DNA from: a virus | DNA length: 48,961 nucleotides | Reading direction: 5' to 3' (one strand) | IMG/VR virus record: IMGVR_UViG_3300018080_000249 | Coordinates: 1 to 48,961 of that record | Shown: in pieces, positions 10,764 through 48,557 of the stretch | Layout: each line of letters begins with the position of its first letter | Numbering within the stretch: the stretch's first letter is position 1 | Notes under the pieces: model-generated | Told to the model about the DNA's origin: nothing | Database searches by the model: none | Seen by the model: only the letters and a program-made list of their open reading frames with translations | Made by a program: the position numbers and the translations under genes

Positions 10764-10784
10764 TTGTCAAGATTGCGGAATCAT
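10764..10784. repeat. 21-base repeat, copy 1
   Basis: The sequence TTGTCAAGATTGCGGAAT plus CAT is repeated exactly at 14945-14965. Both copies lie in non-coding control DNA, both directly before an AT-rich or A-rich tract. Read on the minus strand it contains TTGACA. Confidence 0.75.
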
Positions 10785-10942: not shown

Positions 10943-11035
10943 CTTGCATCTTGCATCTTGCGCCTTGCATCTTGCGCCTTGCATCTTGCGCCTTGCATCT
11001 TGCGCCTTATACGCAGGTGCCTTATACGCAGGCGC
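10943..11035. repeat. CTTGCAT/CTTGCGC tandem array with two 15-bp units
   Basis: Nine directly repeated 7-bp units follow each other without a gap from 10943 to 11005: CTTGCAT twice, then CTTGCGC and CTTGCAT alternating and ending with CTTGCGC. Two 15-bp units, CTTATACGCAGGTGC and CTTATACGCAGGCGC, follow at 11006-11035. Units are too short and too close for CRISPR. They look like iterons bound by an initiator or partition protein, and a ParB-like gene lies 0.7 kb away. Confidence 0.85.
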
Positions 11036-11454: not shown

Positions 11455-11694
11455 TGTAGCCTCCTTTCAAGGATTGAGGGGCGCGGGCCATTGCACCGGG
11501 AGCATTGTGTGCTCAACGCCTATATGACCGGAGTTTGTTTGCCCGCGCCCCATTGATTCATAGTGCCATCGGACCTTGCCCCTTGGCCGATAGTTGGCCT
11601 GAGCGTGTAGGCTATCCCCATTGGATGCCTTGAGCGACTCACGTCAACGTGACTTCAAATCATCATTGATTTTGAAGTCAACGCCACAGGGGAT
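11455..11694. other. Structured intergenic spacer between ParB-like gene and small gene
   Basis: No gene is seen here. Two stems stand out. GGGGCGCGGGC (11478-11488) pairs perfectly with GCCCGCGCCCC (11541-11551) and encloses a small hairpin GAGCA/TGCTC (11500-11514) and a CCGG/CCGG pairing. A second stem, 11650-11662 with 11667-11680, is 13 bp with one bulge and sits 14 bases after the ParB-like stop. The first could be a leader RNA of the gene at 11221; the second a terminator without a T tract. Confidence 0.5.
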
Positions 11695-12750
11695 TTACAA
11701 CGTTCCCTCTATGACGCTTTGCTTGATACGAAGGGCCGTAGCCTTGAAGGCTTTCCAGATCTCCGGCTTGTGCTTTACGACCAGATCGACGAGGTACAGC
11801 CTTTCATCCTGCTGCTTGAGGCCCTTCACGTCTTGCTTCCCGGCGTGCTGCTGAGTGAGGAGCTTGAATCCCTCACTGTCCCACGCGCCTGAGTCAAGCT
11901 GCTCTTGCATGGCATTCGCAGACATGGCCTTGGCGCGCGTCCCTTCCTTCTTGACGACCTTGAGCGTCTCCGCCCATTGCCGCGAGAAGTTCGGGCCGGG
12001 ATTGCCCTTGCTGTGCTTCGGGACGCCGTTGTCGTCGAGGATTTTGCAATCCTCTTCGAGGGCCTTTGCCAGCTTCTTTACGTCGCCGTAGGTCAGCTTG
12101 GCGGGGCACTTGACGCCCTTGGGCAGGGGCTCCTTGGCCTCCAAGTGGCGGAGGCACTGTGCGACGCGAGGAGGGCATTTCCAGACGGCGATGGATGCCT
12201 GGAGCTGGCCCTTGTACGTCTCGTGGACGAGCTTCCGGATTTCCACGCGATTCTTGACTGGGTCCTTCTTCAGCTCCGCCAGCTTCTCCCTCTTGCTGCT
12301 TGGGACAGCTGTCTGGAACTTTGCGAAGAGACCTTCAAGCCTTGCGCAGATTTCCTCCTCGGTGCAGCCTTCGTCCTTGAGGATTGCCACGGCCATGTCC
12401 CGTTCCGACCGGAACCTGAGCGAAACGACTGTGCCGTGGTCGACCTTGGCAAGGGCGGCCTCAGACGCGTTCGTGATATCCTTGCGGATGATCACGGGAA
12501 TCCCGTTCGGGAACAGCTCCTTGAATCGCTTGGGGTTACGCTTGGCAACGATGCTTGCACCGTTGTAGCGCCTGTAACCCCGCACGATTTCCAGAACGCC
12601 CTCGTCGTTCTTCCATGCCTGGATGGGCTCGTCCATGCCCCGGTCTTCGAGCGAATCCGCCATGCCCTCATAGTCGAGAGAGGCGGTGAGACGGGTGTTG
12701 ACGCCCTGCGTCAAATCATTGAGCGCTACATCCTTGATCTGATGCTTCAT
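11695..12750 (-). CDS. ParB/Srx-fold domain protein (ParB-like)
   Basis: With ATG 12750 the product has 351 residues. Near the N-terminus, DYEGMADSLEDRGMDEPIQAWKNDEGVLEIVRGYRRYNGA matches the ParB N-terminal nuclease-like domain: 'l..sI...G...Pi.v....g...iv.G.RR..A', with the RGYRRY box. The middle and C-terminus are helical and basic, without a clear second ParB motif. The family includes DNA-binding CTPases and phage DNA-modification or regulatory proteins. No ParA is visible. Codons are much richer in G and C than the neighbours, suggesting separate origin. A GTG at 12792 would add 14 residues; neither start has a good ribosome site. Confidence 0.75.
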   Translation of the reverse strand: MKHQIKDVALNDLTQGVNTRLTASLDYEGMADSLEDRGMDEPIQAWKNDEGVLEIVRGYRRYNGASIVAKRNPKRFKELFPNGIPVIIRKDITNASEAALAKVDHGTVVSLRFRSERDMAVAILKDEGCTEEEICARLEGLFAKFQTAVPSSKREKLAELKKDPVKNRVEIRKLVHETYKGQLQASIAVWKCPPRVAQCLRHLEAKEPLPKGVKCPAKLTYGDVKKLAKALEEDCKILDDNGVPKHSKGNPGPNFSRQWAETLKVVKKEGTRAKAMSANAMQEQLDSGAWDSEGFKLLTQQHAGKQDVKGLKQQDERLYLVDLVVKHKPEIWKAFKATALRIKQSVIEGTL

Positions 12751-12796
12751 GAGACAGTCCGTTCCAGACCAAGGGGCAAGGCCCGATGACACTATT

Positions 12797-12820
12797 CTAG
12801 GCTAGTGACTTGGCGGCCCT
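12797..12820. repeat. 24-bp inverted repeat, left arm
   Basis: This 24-base stretch, from CTAGGCTAGTGACTTG to GCGGCCCT, is the exact reverse complement of 13108-13131. The two arms flank the minus-strand gene at 12828-13091. Confidence 0.85.
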
Positions 12821-12827
12821 GATAAAA

Positions 12828-13091
12828 TCAGCGAGTGAGCGCATGGTAGAGAGCTTCAAGCTCCCAGCCCACAAGGGGCAGGTCTTCATAGGCATCTACG
12901 AATTGCTGTTGCGTCAGGTTGCCTAGGTTGATGGTCTGCTTGAACTGCGCCGAAATCCTTTTATTCCTCAGAATCCGGGAGCACATCTTTGTGCTTATGA
13001 AGGCTTCCCGGCGCGTGATCCTGCCGTTATCGGCAAGTGTCCAGAGATACGTCAAGGCAGCACAAGATTGCGGGATAGTGCATAGTGACAT
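12828..13091 (-). CDS. Putative small DNA-binding protein, 87 aa
   Basis: ATG 13091 is preferred; a TTG at 13118 would put the start inside the inverted repeat. The protein has a helical pattern with NGRITRREAFISTKMCSRILRN, which is reminiscent of a winged-helix or helix-turn-helix unit, and ends LVGWELEALYHALTR. Its only near neighbours are the ParB-like gene and another small basic protein, so a regulatory role is plausible. It is flanked by a perfect 24-bp inverted repeat. Family not recognised. Confidence 0.5.
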   Translation of the reverse strand: MSLCTIPQSCAALTYLWTLADNGRITRREAFISTKMCSRILRNKRISAQFKQTINLGNLTQQQFVDAYEDLPLVGWELEALYHALTR

Positions 13092-13107
13092 ATTGGCCTC
13101 ATTTCCA

Positions 13108-13131
13108 AGGGCCGCCAAGTCACTAGCCTAG
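13108..13131. repeat. 24-bp inverted repeat, right arm
   Basis: Exact reverse complement of 12797-12820. On the minus strand it lies directly upstream of the gene at 13091, while the other arm lies just upstream of the ParB-like gene, so each minus-strand gene has one arm in its 5' region. Confidence 0.85.
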
Positions 13132-13171: not shown

Positions 13172-13423
13172 CTATCGGAAGTATACTTCCCTCCCGTTTG
13201 CGTATGCATGTAGCATCGCTCTGAGTGTCCGGCGTCCGCGCCGAGTTTCTAGCATATCTGCTATACGTTGTTCGTCGAGTTTCGTTTGGCGTTTCCATTC
13301 CGACAATGCGAGTGTTGATAGTGTGACGCCATCTTTGCGCCGTTTCTGGATTCGGACCGGAATACTACGTTGTTCGGAATGCCGCATATCCGGCCCGCTT
13401 TCTAGTGGCGTTCCGAATGCCAC
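13172..13423 (-). CDS. Putative helix-turn-helix protein, 83 aa
   Basis: The minus strand is chosen over an equally long plus-strand frame because its composition is typical of a basic DNA-binding protein: RRKDGVTLSTLALSEWKRQTKLDEQRIADMLETRRGRRTLRAML, with a possible helix-turn-helix around LALSEWKRQTKLDEQRIADML. GTG 13423 or ATG 13387 may be the start; neither has a good site. It would head the minus-strand cluster and could be its regulator. Confidence 0.45.
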   Translation of the reverse strand: MAFGTPLESGPDMRHSEQRSIPVRIQKRRKDGVTLSTLALSEWKRQTKLDEQRIADMLETRRGRRTLRAMLHAYANGREVYFR

Positions 13424-13745
13424 GCCCTAGCATAGCACTACGTATGCCATAGACTGCCCGATATCATGAATCAGTCACAAGTCTAATTATTGCAACAAGT
13501 TACGCAAGTTGTTGGATAGCAGCAGTTTATGTAATCCGTTATAACATAATGAGTTACGGTCAGCCGAAAGCCTACAGCAAATGTCGGGCCATGTAGGAAT
13601 ATCCAACACGACGTGACAATTCTTGACACCTTAAAGTCGGAAGTTGGGTAATGGCAATGGGTTATGTCTACGTCTTCAAGGTGTTAGCTTGCCGTAGAAT
13701 GTCACCAGCAAATGCTATGCCACACTATCACTTGCAAATGTCATG

Positions 13746-13768
13746 CCATGTAGGATAATCCTACATGG
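13746..13768. promoter_or_regulatory. Perfect 23-base palindrome
   Basis: CCATGTAGGAT-A-ATCCTACATGG, an exact dyad with one central base, suited to a dimeric repressor or a ParB-type protein. A related half-site stands at 13589-13599. Confidence 0.8.
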
Positions 13769-14025
13769 TACGCTGTTTGCTTATGTTACTGTATGGTAAC
13801 CACAGGTTACACAAACACAATATATGGTAGGGGCGCACATGTGCAGACACTACATGTAGTGGTGTTCGCATGATTCATGTATCTTTGCACAAGTAGGGCA
13901 CATGTGCAATTCGCCCAGAGATGCGTTATATTGCGTTTGACGCGAAAGCGCGTTCCTTATAGTGAAAGACTGCAATGATTCTAGTATGTATCCTATGGTG
14001 TTTGACGTGATAGTGTTTCGTTATA

Positions 14026-14053
14026 GAGTGTCGAGTGTCGAGTGTCGAGTGTC
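14026..14053. repeat. GAGTGTC tandem repeat, four copies
   Basis: Four exact, adjacent 7-base units. They lie about 100 bases upstream of the strong promoter at 14151, where activator sites or iterons would be expected. Confidence 0.85.
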
Positions 14054-14150
14054 AATAGCATGAATCATAATAATGTGTTACTGTTTGTCAGCTAGTCTGT
14101 TTATACTTAAATAGTGTGAAAGAAAAATGCACTATCTGGCAGGTTTTCTC

Positions 14151-14178
14151 TTGACAATGCAAGGCCATAGTCTAGAAT
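14151..14178 (+). promoter_or_regulatory. Strong sigma70-type promoter
   Basis: TTGACA (14151-14156), 16-base spacer, TAGAAT (14173-14178). The transcript would start inside the palindrome at 14182-14208, which is the classic place for a repressor. The upstream TTTTCTC is shared in outline with the candidate promoters at 14885 and 47425. Confidence 0.75.
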
Positions 14179-14181
14179 CCA

Positions 14182-14208
14182 CTAGTCGATAGATAGGCTA
14201 TCGACTAG
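14182..14208. promoter_or_regulatory. Palindromic operator over the transcription start
   Basis: CTAGTCGATAG (14182-14192) and CTATCGACTAG (14198-14208) are perfect 11-bp arms around ATAGG. The site begins four bases after the -10 box and ends 13 bases before the ATG of the next gene, so a bound dimer would block initiation. Confidence 0.75.
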
Positions 14209-14221
14209 ATAGGGGCTGACC

Positions 14222-14542
14222 ATGAACGTATCGCAAGCGCGTTATCTTCTGAAGAGTCTTCAAGAGTCTATCGCAAACATCCATGAAGCGCGTAAACTAG
14301 TGGAGGATATCGGCGTTTGGCTTATCGACGCAAGAAAAGAGCGTCAAGATATCGACGAAACGCATGAAGACAATCAACTCCTGGATGGTATAGCGGCCCA
14401 TTGCGCCGGATTGACTGTCAAGCTTGTTGACCTAGTATCCTCACCTAGCATGAATGGCAAGCATACGTCCATGGAATACGAGAGCCGCGGTTTCCAGAAT
14501 GCGCTTGCAATGCGTATCCATGACATGGGTCAGCTACCCTAA
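14222..14542 (+). CDS. Hypothetical protein under a regulated promoter, 106 aa
   Basis: ATG 14222 follows AGGGGCTGACC. The 106-residue product is helical with a heptad-like N-terminal half (ARYLLKSLQESIANIHEARKLVEDIGVWLIDARKERQD) and no membrane segment. No DNA-binding motif is obvious. It is monocistronic, between a strong promoter with a palindromic operator and a hairpin after the stop. That layout is typical of an early or switch gene, but its function is not recognised. Confidence 0.7.
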   Translation: MNVSQARYLLKSLQESIANIHEARKLVEDIGVWLIDARKERQDIDETHEDNQLLDGIAAHCAGLTVKLVDLVSSPSMNGKHTSMEYESRGFQNALAMRIHDMGQLP

Positions 14543-14593: not shown

Positions 14594-14884
14594 TATGGGT
14601 ATGCTAGAGTAGTCTATACTAGGGAGGTGGGGTCAAATACTAGGGTGGTATCGACATATCCCTATATAGTATCGAATCCTGGATACTGTTTCACATCGTC
14701 AAAAAATTTTTCAAAATTATTTTGAAAATTTTCAAATTTTTTTCTGAGGATGATTTTGAAATTTAAAATTAGGCACCCCGAGCCTTGCGTCTTGTACCGT
14801 TAGTATGGACACAAGCGCCTTGTACCATTAGTGTGAACACCATACGATATCGACCACCCGACGAAAATTTTTCTCAGTTTTTAC

Positions 14885-14914
14885 TTGACTCTTTGCTCAA
14901 TGCGTCGATATATC
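14885..14914 (+). promoter_or_regulatory. Candidate promoter for the virion gene block
   Basis: TTGACT (14885-14890) and TATATC (14909-14914) with an 18-base spacer, or GATATA with 16. The leading TTTTTACTTGACT matches TTTTCACTTGACT at 47419 closely. It lies about 80 bases upstream of the first gene of the long plus block. Confidence 0.4.
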
Positions 14915-14944
14915 AGTATGGGGTCTTTGTTAAAACAACCTTAC

Positions 14945-14965
14945 TTGTCAAGATTGCGGAATCAT
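14945..14965. repeat. 21-base repeat, copy 2
   Basis: Identical to 10764-10784. It ends 27 bases before the ATG of the first gene of the plus block. Confidence 0.75.
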
Positions 14966-14992: not shown

Positions 14993-15550
14993 ATGGCAGA
15001 CATAAAGAAATGCCAAGATCCAGCCGACCCAAAACGGTGTCAGGCCGTTAATTCTCAGGGACAATGTCGGAATCTTGCTGCGGAGGGTAGTCATTTCTGT
15101 ATGGCACACGGCGGTAACAAAGCTCAGGAAGCTGCCGCTAAGGCATCCCTCCGCAACTACAGACTCACGAAGTGGTCCGCACGTATCCAGCAGCAGGCCG
15201 ATTCACCCGCTATCAAGTCTCTAAGGGATGAGATCGGAATCCTCCGTATGCTCATGGAGGAACGTCTTAACAAGTGTAATACCGAGATGGATCTCATCCT
15301 CCAGTCTCAAGCCCTAGCAGATTTGGTGATGAAGATTGAGCACATTGTCGTGAGTTGCCATAAGCTAGAGGATAAGCTGAAGCTCGTTGTGGACAGGCAA
15401 GCCTTGCTTCAGTTCGCTAGTATGGTCATCAATATCGTTGCGAACGAACTCAGCAACGAGCTTGGCGACGATGCCGAGGTCTTACTTACTACGATTTCGG
15501 ATGGTATCCTTGCCGCAGTAGGCAAGATTGGAGAATCAGATGATCTTTAG
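14993..15550 (+). CDS. Cys/His-motif protein at head of virion block, possible small terminase
   Basis: 185 residues from ATG 14993. The N-terminus RCQAVNSQGQCRNLAAEGSHFCMAHGG (about residues 15-42) is a short C...C...C-x2-HGG zinc-like module, related in pattern to the HGGxSTG type found in phages. The rest is helical, with a probable coiled-coil (SLRDEIGILRMLMEERLNKC) and an oligomerisation-like C-terminus. A DNA-binding head and an oligomeric helical body at the start of the packaging and virion operon suit a small terminase subunit. This is inference from position only, since the large subunit is 5 kb away. Confidence 0.6.
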   Translation: MADIKKCQDPADPKRCQAVNSQGQCRNLAAEGSHFCMAHGGNKAQEAAAKASLRNYRLTKWSARIQQQADSPAIKSLRDEIGILRMLMEERLNKCNTEMDLILQSQALADLVMKIEHIVVSCHKLEDKLKLVVDRQALLQFASMVINIVANELSNELGDDAEVLLTTISDGILAAVGKIGESDDL

Positions 15551-47145: not shown

Positions 47146-47424
47146 TCCCGCTCCAAATGGATTAGATTCTAAATAACATTACCGGAATCAAATCATTACA
47201 AATAGACTGCCTAATGTCTATATCGGACAATGACAGAAAAAGTTAAATGAAAAATGTAAGTCCTTGGTAGTCAATAATTTACAACCTACTAACATACAGT
47301 CTGTAATTAGTATATAATGTTAGTCGTTAGTATACTTGCATTTATAGCAGCCAATTTTCAAGACGTTAGTACGTAGCGCAATGCTCCTTAAAAGGGCGCA
47401 TGTTCAAATTTTTTTTATTTTCAC

Positions 47425-47452
47425 TTGACTTTTTCCCGGTTTGGCCGATAAT
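47425..47452 (+). promoter_or_regulatory. Sigma70-type promoter of the second ParB-like gene
   Basis: TTGACT (47425-47430), 16-base spacer, GATAAT (47447-47452), preceded by a T-rich tract. It lies 120 bases upstream of the start codon, leaving a long leader. Confidence 0.65.
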
Positions 47453-47497
47453 GCTCCTATGGGGAATAATTCAACAGGAAGGAGGCTAGAGCTTAAT

Positions 47498-47523
47498 AGG
47501 AATCAAATCCAGATTTGATTCCT
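47498..47523 (+). promoter_or_regulatory. Perfect inverted repeat in the ParB-like leader
   Basis: AGGAATCAAAT (47498-47508) and ATTTGATTCCT (47513-47523) are exact 11-bp arms around CCAG, followed by ATTTTTG. As RNA it could be an attenuator; as DNA an operator for a dimer. The half-site GGAATCAAA is found again at the ribosome site (47563) and at 47184 near the primase start, which favours a protein-binding site. Confidence 0.7.
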
Positions 47524-47573
47524 ATTTTTGATTGTCTCAATCATTTCTTGGTCCCAAGGAAAGGAATCAAACC

Positions 47574-48557
47574 GTGGGTAATGTACGCAAAGCAAAGTTG
47601 TCAGAGATTCGCCCGAACGCTGTCGCACTTCGTGCCGTAAATCCGGAGTCGGAATCCTATCTCGGACTCGTGGAATCCATAAGGGAAAAGGGATTCTTCG
47701 GTGCCATTACCGTGCGCGAGCGCGTTGATGGTGAGACGGGTGAGAAGTACCTTGAGTTGGTTGATGGTCTGCATCGTTTCTCCGCCGCACAGGATGTCGG
47801 GATTGCCGAGATCAACGTCGATATCACTGATTTCGATGATGATCAGGTTCTTGAAGCTCAGATTCTCGGAAACATCCAGCGTGTCGAGACGAAGCCGGTT
47901 GAGTATACGAGGCAGATGCTTCGTATCCTTGCTCGTAATCCTCTCATGACTGAGGCCGAGCTTGCCAAGAAGCTCGCAAAGTCAATCACCTGGGTCCAGC
48001 AGCGGCTCAGTCTTACCAAGATTGCCGACGAGAAGATTCAGGGTCTTGTCGACGAGGGCAAGATTGCACTGATCAATGCGTATCAGCTTGCCAAGCTGCC
48101 CGTCGAGGAGCAGGCGGACTTCCTTGATCGTGCCATAACTGAATCGCCTGAGACGTTCGTTCCTGCCGTCAAGAAGCGTGTGAAGGAACTCAAGGAGGCC
48201 GCGCGTCAGGGTAAGGACGCTGCGGAGGCAACCTTTGAGCCTGTCGCTCATATGCAGAAGATGAAGGACATCAAGGGTGCTCTTGATGACGGCAAGCTGA
48301 TTCCGGCGCTCATCAAGAAGAACAAGGTCACGGACCCCGTGAAGGCTGCGACGCTTGCGGTCCAGTGGGTGCTCCACCTTGATCCTGATTCTATCGCTGC
48401 ACAGAAGGCTGATTTCGAGGCCAAGAAGCTGGCAAAGGAAGAGAAGAAGAAGGAAGCCGCTGCGAAGCGCGCTGCCAAGAAGGCCGAAGACCAAAAGAAG
48501 AAGGCCGACGAGGCTGCGAAGGCTGCCGTAGAGGCCGCCGAGGCTGCGAAGAAGTAG
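47574..48557 (+). CDS. Second ParB-like protein (ParB/Spo0J N-terminal domain)
   Basis: GTG 47574 is preceded by AAGGAAAGG; a TTG 42 bases upstream would lie before the ribosome site. 327 residues. KLSEIRPNAVALRAVNPESESYLGLVESIREKGFFGAITVRER (residues 6-48), then YLELVDGLHRFSAAQDVGI and NVDITDFDDDQVLEAQILGNIQRVETKPVEYTRQM, match the ParB domain (GxxRxxA box as DGLHRFSA). AELAKKLAKSITWVQQRLSLTKI is a helix-turn-helix as in ParB/KorB. The last 60 residues are Lys/Ala coiled coil. It resembles true ParB more than the protein at 11695. Confidence 0.88.
   Translation: MGNVRKAKLSEIRPNAVALRAVNPESESYLGLVESIREKGFFGAITVRERVDGETGEKYLELVDGLHRFSAAQDVGIAEINVDITDFDDDQVLEAQILGNIQRVETKPVEYTRQMLRILARNPLMTEAELAKKLAKSITWVQQRLSLTKIADEKIQGLVDEGKIALINAYQLAKLPVEEQADFLDRAITESPETFVPAVKKRVKELKEAARQGKDAAEATFEPVAHMQKMKDIKGALDDGKLIPALIKKNKVTDPVKAATLAVQWVLHLDPDSIAAQKADFEAKKLAKEEKKKEAAAKRAAKKAEDQKKKADEAAKAAVEAAEAAKK

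Follow-up and report, generated by a model that had tools for sequence, protein, structure and literature searches.

What does a cluster of palindromes do in a gene-free stretch between two diverging gene sets of an uncultured virus? The window, i.e., the whole stretch of DNA analysed here, corresponds to the entire 48,961-bp record of this virus which, to judge from its terminase, portal, scaffold and tail genes, is a tailed phage. The most likely answer is that the palindrome cluster constitutes an on/off control region, located between the genes read leftward and those read rightward.

Gene layout around the palindromes

Leftward p83, p96 and ParB1 (13423 to 11695) diverge from the rightward 106-aa gene, the TerS-like gene, the tail genes and TerL. 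The two sets are separated by a 798-bp gap (13424-14221), located between the ORFs 13172-13423 (minus strand) and 14222-14542 (plus strand) and without ORFs of at least 60 aa. The following genes are relevant here:

11695-12792, minus strand: ParB1, matching the ParB N-domain only
13172-13423, minus strand: p83, a small basic gene, first of the leftward set
14222-14542, plus strand: ORF of the 106-aa gene, first of the rightward set
14993-15550, plus strand: TerS-like gene (185 aa), used as anchor for finding relatives
47532-48557: ParB2, with ParB_N and HTH_ParB domains

The name "TerS-like" is putative, as it is based on position before TerL and on conservation, with no family match behind it. 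Regarding the small leftward genes, the AlphaFold model of p83 consists of two helices (pLDDT 74), matched nothing in the PDB and showed no recognisable DNA-binding fold; p83 homologues lie at the equivalent place in two relatives (L005 and L023), and a profile search returned none beyond those known. The family search with p96 gave no match.

Inventory of the elements

The palindrome cluster is real. All the elements listed for it in the initial annotation (interval 13580-14055) are present, namely perfect dyads of 23, 14, 10 and 10 bases, four GAGTGTC units and repeated TTTGACG-like stretches, but what had been taken for a half copy of the 23-base dyad is rather a whole imperfect dyad. Three GCAAATG iterons and the dyads at 13493-13514 and 14182-14208 had not been included. 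The elements of the gap are as follows:

13493-13514: imperfect dyad CAACAAGTTACGCAAGTTGTTG, 9 of 11 pairs
13577, plus strand: iteron GCAAATGTC..GCC, followed by the next dyad, to 13608
13592-13608: imperfect dyad TGTAGGAATATCCAACA, copy 1 of the motif of the 23-bp dyad, with 1 of 14 fixed positions changed
13708-13721, plus strand: iteron GCAAATGCTATGCC
13734-13747, plus strand: iteron GCAAATGTCATGCC, adjoining the 23-bp dyad
13746-13768: perfect 23-bp dyad CCATGTAGGATAATCCTACATGG
13796-13810: short dyad GTAACCACAGGTTAC, with arms of 6
13835-13844: 10-bp palindrome GCACATGTGC, copy 1
13848-13861: perfect 14-bp dyad CACTACATGTAGTG, made of dyad half-sites back to back
13898-13907: 10-bp palindrome GCACATGTGC, copy 2
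13929-13948, plus strand: promoter-like direct repeat TTTGACG.., copy 1
13994-14013 (entry runs to 14029), plus strand: promoter-like direct repeat, copy 2
14026-14053, plus strand: four tandem GAGTGTC units
14182-14208: 27-bp dyad CTAGTCGATAGATAGGCTATCGACTAG, covering the start predicted for the best promoter-like site

The three iterons (at 13577, 13708 and 13734) share the consensus GCAAATG(T/C)(C/T)..GCC. The copies of the direct repeat (20 nt, 80% identity) are spaced by 65, and the two GCACATGTGC palindromes are identical and have no other copy in the window. In L023, a dyad of equal dimensions (27 bp), CTAGCATACTCTACCTGAGTATGCTAG, is analogous to the 27-bp dyad.

Dyads in excess of chance

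The gap contains three dyads with arms of at least 7, against an expectation of 0.24-0.39 from dinucleotide shuffles, the value varying with the loops permitted (P about 0.006 or less). Its longest arm, of 11, is equalled in at most 0.7% of shuffles (P 0.001-0.007), and imperfect dyads are similarly in excess (P 0.003-0.007). The densest 800-bp dyad blocks of the window span 13.6-15.2 kb. The originally proposed interval shows a less marked excess, with P 0.06 for arms of at least 6, 0.02 for arms of at least 7 and 0.001 for the longest arm. The excess is carried by three or four elements, one 10-bp palindrome alone being the chance expectation.

Recurrence of one dyad motif in relatives

No cultured relative was found by a DNA similarity search of phage records or by a search of cultured phages with the TerS-like protein. 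About 80 uncultured relatives, which share the downstream TerS-like gene, were recovered by means of TerL and TerS-like profiles. When the gaps of the window and 18 relatives were compared, 14 of the 19 had dyad counts over those of shuffles (P 0.06 or less); the excess dyads of the relatives, which lie between the first leftward gene and TerS, are mostly of other sequences than those of the window. Conservation thus applies to the place, the kind of element and one dyad motif, and not to most individual palindromes.

The recurring motif is the dyad TGTAGGATWATCCTACA, present in the window (two copies, one of them imperfect), L005 (one, imperfect), L090 (four) and L091 (one), always upstream of TerS. 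The four copies of L090, two of them imperfect, are arranged head to tail, and the junctions of this array read CTACATGTAG, which is identical to the core of the 14-bp dyad of the window; therefore, the palindromes, initially regarded as different, represent in part a single motif arranged in two ways, accompanied by several other dyad types. Eight sites with no more than one change among the 14 fixed positions were found in 144 kb upstream of TerS; even with up to two changes, none was found in 565 kb downstream. The half-site TGTAGGAT occurs 21 times in 90 kb upstream vs. 7 times in 428 kb downstream of TerS, a 14-fold higher density upstream, in a comparison made largely of noncoding vs. 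coding DNA; the shuffle test, which does not set noncoding against coding DNA, gave 11 loci vs. 2.9 expected (P 0.0002). Among the 21 upstream matches, six belong to the array of L090, and three, in L024, coincide with the -10 sequences of tandem leftward promoters (TTGACA-16-TAGGAT). As p83 was looked for and not found in the contig of L090, an association between p83 and the motif cannot be shown.

Beyond the clade, the exact motif occurs in 11 unrelated viral contigs, about the number expected by chance, and the extended dyad gave no matches against viral contigs. The 17-bp form was found in 15 stretches, mostly of unrelated phages and near chance; since phage operators are palindromic and numerous, these matches were taken as convergent, not homologous, and two of the matched phages have repeated copies of their own. 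Several exact intergenic TGTAGGATNATCCTACA sites are present in two unrelated viral contigs (L105, L116, L110, L113), where they are probably those contigs' own operators. No report of the dyad motif was found in the open-access literature.

A probable control region between divergent gene sets

Promoter-like sites are also in excess, with 10 in 3.5 kb vs. 4.4 expected (sd 1.6). Besides a weak one (TTGCAA-16-GATAAT, 13732-13759) that overlaps the 23-bp dyad, three predicted sites are relevant:

14002-14029, plus strand: TTGACG-16-TAGAGT, weaker, in copy 2 of the direct repeat
14064-14091, minus strand: CTGACA-16-TATGAT, 10 of 12
14151-14178, plus strand: TTGACA-16-TAGAAT, the best sigma-70-type site, 11 of 12, preceding the 106-aa gene

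The GAGTGTC units sit between the predicted start regions of the first two sites, which face each other; hence a heptamer-bound factor could affect both, weak as these sites are. Because promoter-like sites are in excess, the best of them has a dyad at its start and facing sites flank the GAGTGTC units, the gap is probably a bidirectional promoter/operator region. Direct observations are that the elements exist, exceed chance and recur in relatives, and that promoter-like sequences are present.

With the small leftward genes p83, p96 and ParB1 on one side of the gap and the rightward 106-aa gene, TerS and the late genes on the other, sigma-70-type promoters would, in the proposed mechanism, read outward from it. 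One or more dimeric DNA-binding proteins would occupy the dyads, that is, TGTAGGATWATCCTACA, its back-to-back form CTACATGTAG, CAACAAGTTACGCAAGTTGTTG and CTAGTCGATAG-N5-CTATCGACTAG, and perhaps the iterons too; dyad occupancy would then set which side is on. That proteins bind, in which direction they regulate and which protein binds are what we infer here, the candidate binders being p83, p96 and a host factor.

Of the functions initially suggested for such a density of palindromes (multi-operator switch, origin or centromere), it is the switch that gains support, from the promoter-like enrichment, the dyad at the best predicted start, the dyad excess in relatives and the recurring motif. Of one motif, the gap contains two copies and one back-to-back form as candidate operators, next to predicted promoter-like sites, and a switch of this type would be nothing unusual as such. 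The gap would thus probably be the control hub of a clade of phages, of which no cultured member was found, and it supplies a testable operator motif.

Possible pairing in RNA and the enclosed leftward genes

A different reading of the same dyads is that they act as RNA elements, i.e., as 5' stem-loops and a structured leader (e.g., 13829-13918) setting transcript stability or processing. Several gap dyads do fold well as RNA: relative to shuffles, the folding of the hairpins is much better, with z of -3.5 to -4.5, and 13820-13920 has a folding z of about -2.6. Within 13829-13918 both GCACATGTGC copies could pair with each other around smaller hairpins, the dyad at 14182-14208 lies at a predicted mRNA 5' end, and RNA-level pairing appears to shape the adjoining leftward genes. 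Against this, the conserved dyad is symmetric and its head-to-tail copies in L090 resemble DNA-site arrays, the Rfam search found no family above threshold in the region, and perfect dyads carry no wobble information. On balance, this reading of the dyads is rather unlikely.

Pairing in the adjoining genes would take another form. Among the relatives, a search for inverted repeats with arms of at least 17 nt, spaced by no more than 1.6 kb, gave 84 upstream of TerS (198 kb), some of them overlapping repeats of L059 and L092, vs. none downstream (238 kb). Of 34 spaced pairs, hand-picked from the search output, nearly all flank one leftward ORF, in many cases together with the ribosome-binding region, and adjacent pairs frequently abut. 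Two such pairs belong to the window, none having been found around p83:

11560-11586 / 12769-12795: inverted repeat enclosing ParB1
12797-12820 / 13108-13131: inverted repeat enclosing p96

Enclosed genes occur in the window (11560-13131) and in L005, L009, L024, L031, L037, L039, L042, L048, L051, L058 and L092. Their arms, of about 20-27 nt, have a private sequence per gene and phage, mostly unrelated yet complementary, although those of L024 and those of L048 resemble one another within the phage. At 3033-3118 of L005, an inverted repeat of the gene-enclosing type has only 34 nt between its arms and no gene inside.

Out of 40 arm mismatches, 27 are G-U pairs in the leftward RNA, 7 are G-U only in the rightward RNA and 6 are neither (27 vs. 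7: binomial P 0.0008; sign test over loci P 0.008). Such a wobble bias suggests that the arms pair in the leftward mRNA; counting G-U, the ParB1 stem is paired at 27/27 positions. It is conceivable, and we put it forward tentatively, that the gap is also the launch site of a leftward array in which most genes are sealed single-gene units, with mRNA ends complementary over about 25 bp. With 5' and 3' ends of this kind, a leftward transcript starting in the gap would fold into a chain of one-gene panhandles, which would be cut out or protected singly, like rRNA processing stems. Gene-flanking repeats of this type were not found described in the open-access literature; if they act in RNA, they would represent a mechanism, so far undescribed, by which phages seal or process the mRNAs of single genes.

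Less probable readings: origin, packaging and partition

Returning to the control region, other DNA-level functions must be weighed against it. A replication origin with iterons would be in agreement with the iterons and tandem heptamers of the gap and with the AT-rich stretch close by (14690-14745). Nevertheless, the GC-skew minimum (47-48 kb) and a primase gene point to 44-48 kb, the skew being a weak test of origin because it follows gene direction, and no initiator gene was recognised beside the gap. An origin at this place is therefore improbable.

The location of the gap upstream of TerS raises the possibility that it is part of a packaging (cos/pac) site recognised by terminase. The best-conserved DNA of the clade lies just upstream of TerS, rather than in the initially annotated interval:

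14605-14965, plus strand: conserved leader preceding TerS, which contains the clade motif GGTGGGGTCAAAT as well as an AT-rich stretch

The motif AGGGTGGGTCAAAT gives the strongest 8-mer signal of the clade (e.g., 24 of 73 loci contain GGGTGGGT, the expectation being 1.7) and is mostly located about 140-400 bp upstream of TerS; it looks like a candidate packaging site or another conserved element, and dyads lie near it in L024, L029, L030 and L040. However, the window copy of AGGGTGGGTCAAAT (about 14624-14637, near 14630) is ~570 bp to the right of the original interval, past the 106-aa gene, and it is quite improbable that the gap itself belongs to a packaging site. Part of the leader is repeated in noncoding 10.3-11.2 kb, with an identical 21-mer, TTGTCAAGATTGCGGAATCAT, at 10764-10784 and 14945-14965.

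Tandem repeats were detected in 60 of 80 TerS-upstream regions vs. 6 of 80 downstream controls, part of that difference being expected since the controls are coding. The repeat units differ per phage, periods of 7, 14, 15 and 28 being common; in the window, hypervariable short tandem repeats lie at 14026-14053 and 14787-14840, the four GAGTGTC units being a small case of this clade-wide feature. Contig ends cluster upstream of TerS, mostly inside tandem repeats; many contigs ending inside such arrays, these ends are no evidence of genome ends and may be assembly breaks. Tandem repeats upstream of terminase were not found described in the open-access literature. Elsewhere in the window, tandem CTTGCAT/CTTGCGC heptamers are present at 10943-11012, and CTTGCGCCTTG elements are scattered over 10.4-11.2 kb.

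Finally, a partition site (centromere) bound by ParB-like proteins, to which the two ParB-like genes and a dyad of about parS-site length might point, is the least probable reading and very remote, given that ParB2, the protein bearing HTH_ParB, is associated with AATCAAATC, found in the window only at 47186-47520, and that no ParA-type ATPase (PF13614) was found in the record, which may be incomplete. The AATCAAATC 9-mer occurs three times in the 48,961 bp (47186, 47501 and 47512), always less than 400 bp upstream of parB2, and is absent from the palindrome gap; as it is conserved near parB2 (in 6 of 9 relatives), it is likely the site of ParB2, and supplies a candidate ParB2 motif. The region before parB2 (47160-47570) contains, together with these three copies, a 32-bp dyad (47495-47526). 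The model of ParB1 matches the ParB/Noc/KorB fold, while its search against HTH families gave no match.

Comparison with known systems

The locus resembles ParB-parS and KorB systems in that a palindromic site of 16-17 bp occurs in a phage that encodes two proteins of the ParB fold. It differs in that the ParB2-associated motif has another sequence and another place, ParB1 matches no HTH family and no ParA was found. Phage-specific repeats and dyads upstream of a small terminase gene are shared with the cosB/pac sites of phages but, in this case, the conserved core lies outside the interval. As for lambda-type OR/OL, the dyads of the present locus are of several unrelated types and do not form a single operator series, an adjacent CI/Cro-like repressor is not recognisable and, when sought, a tyrosine integrase was not found in this record. 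In common with OR/OL, several dyads and promoter-like sites are packed between divergent gene sets, and one motif is present in perfect, imperfect and back-to-back forms.
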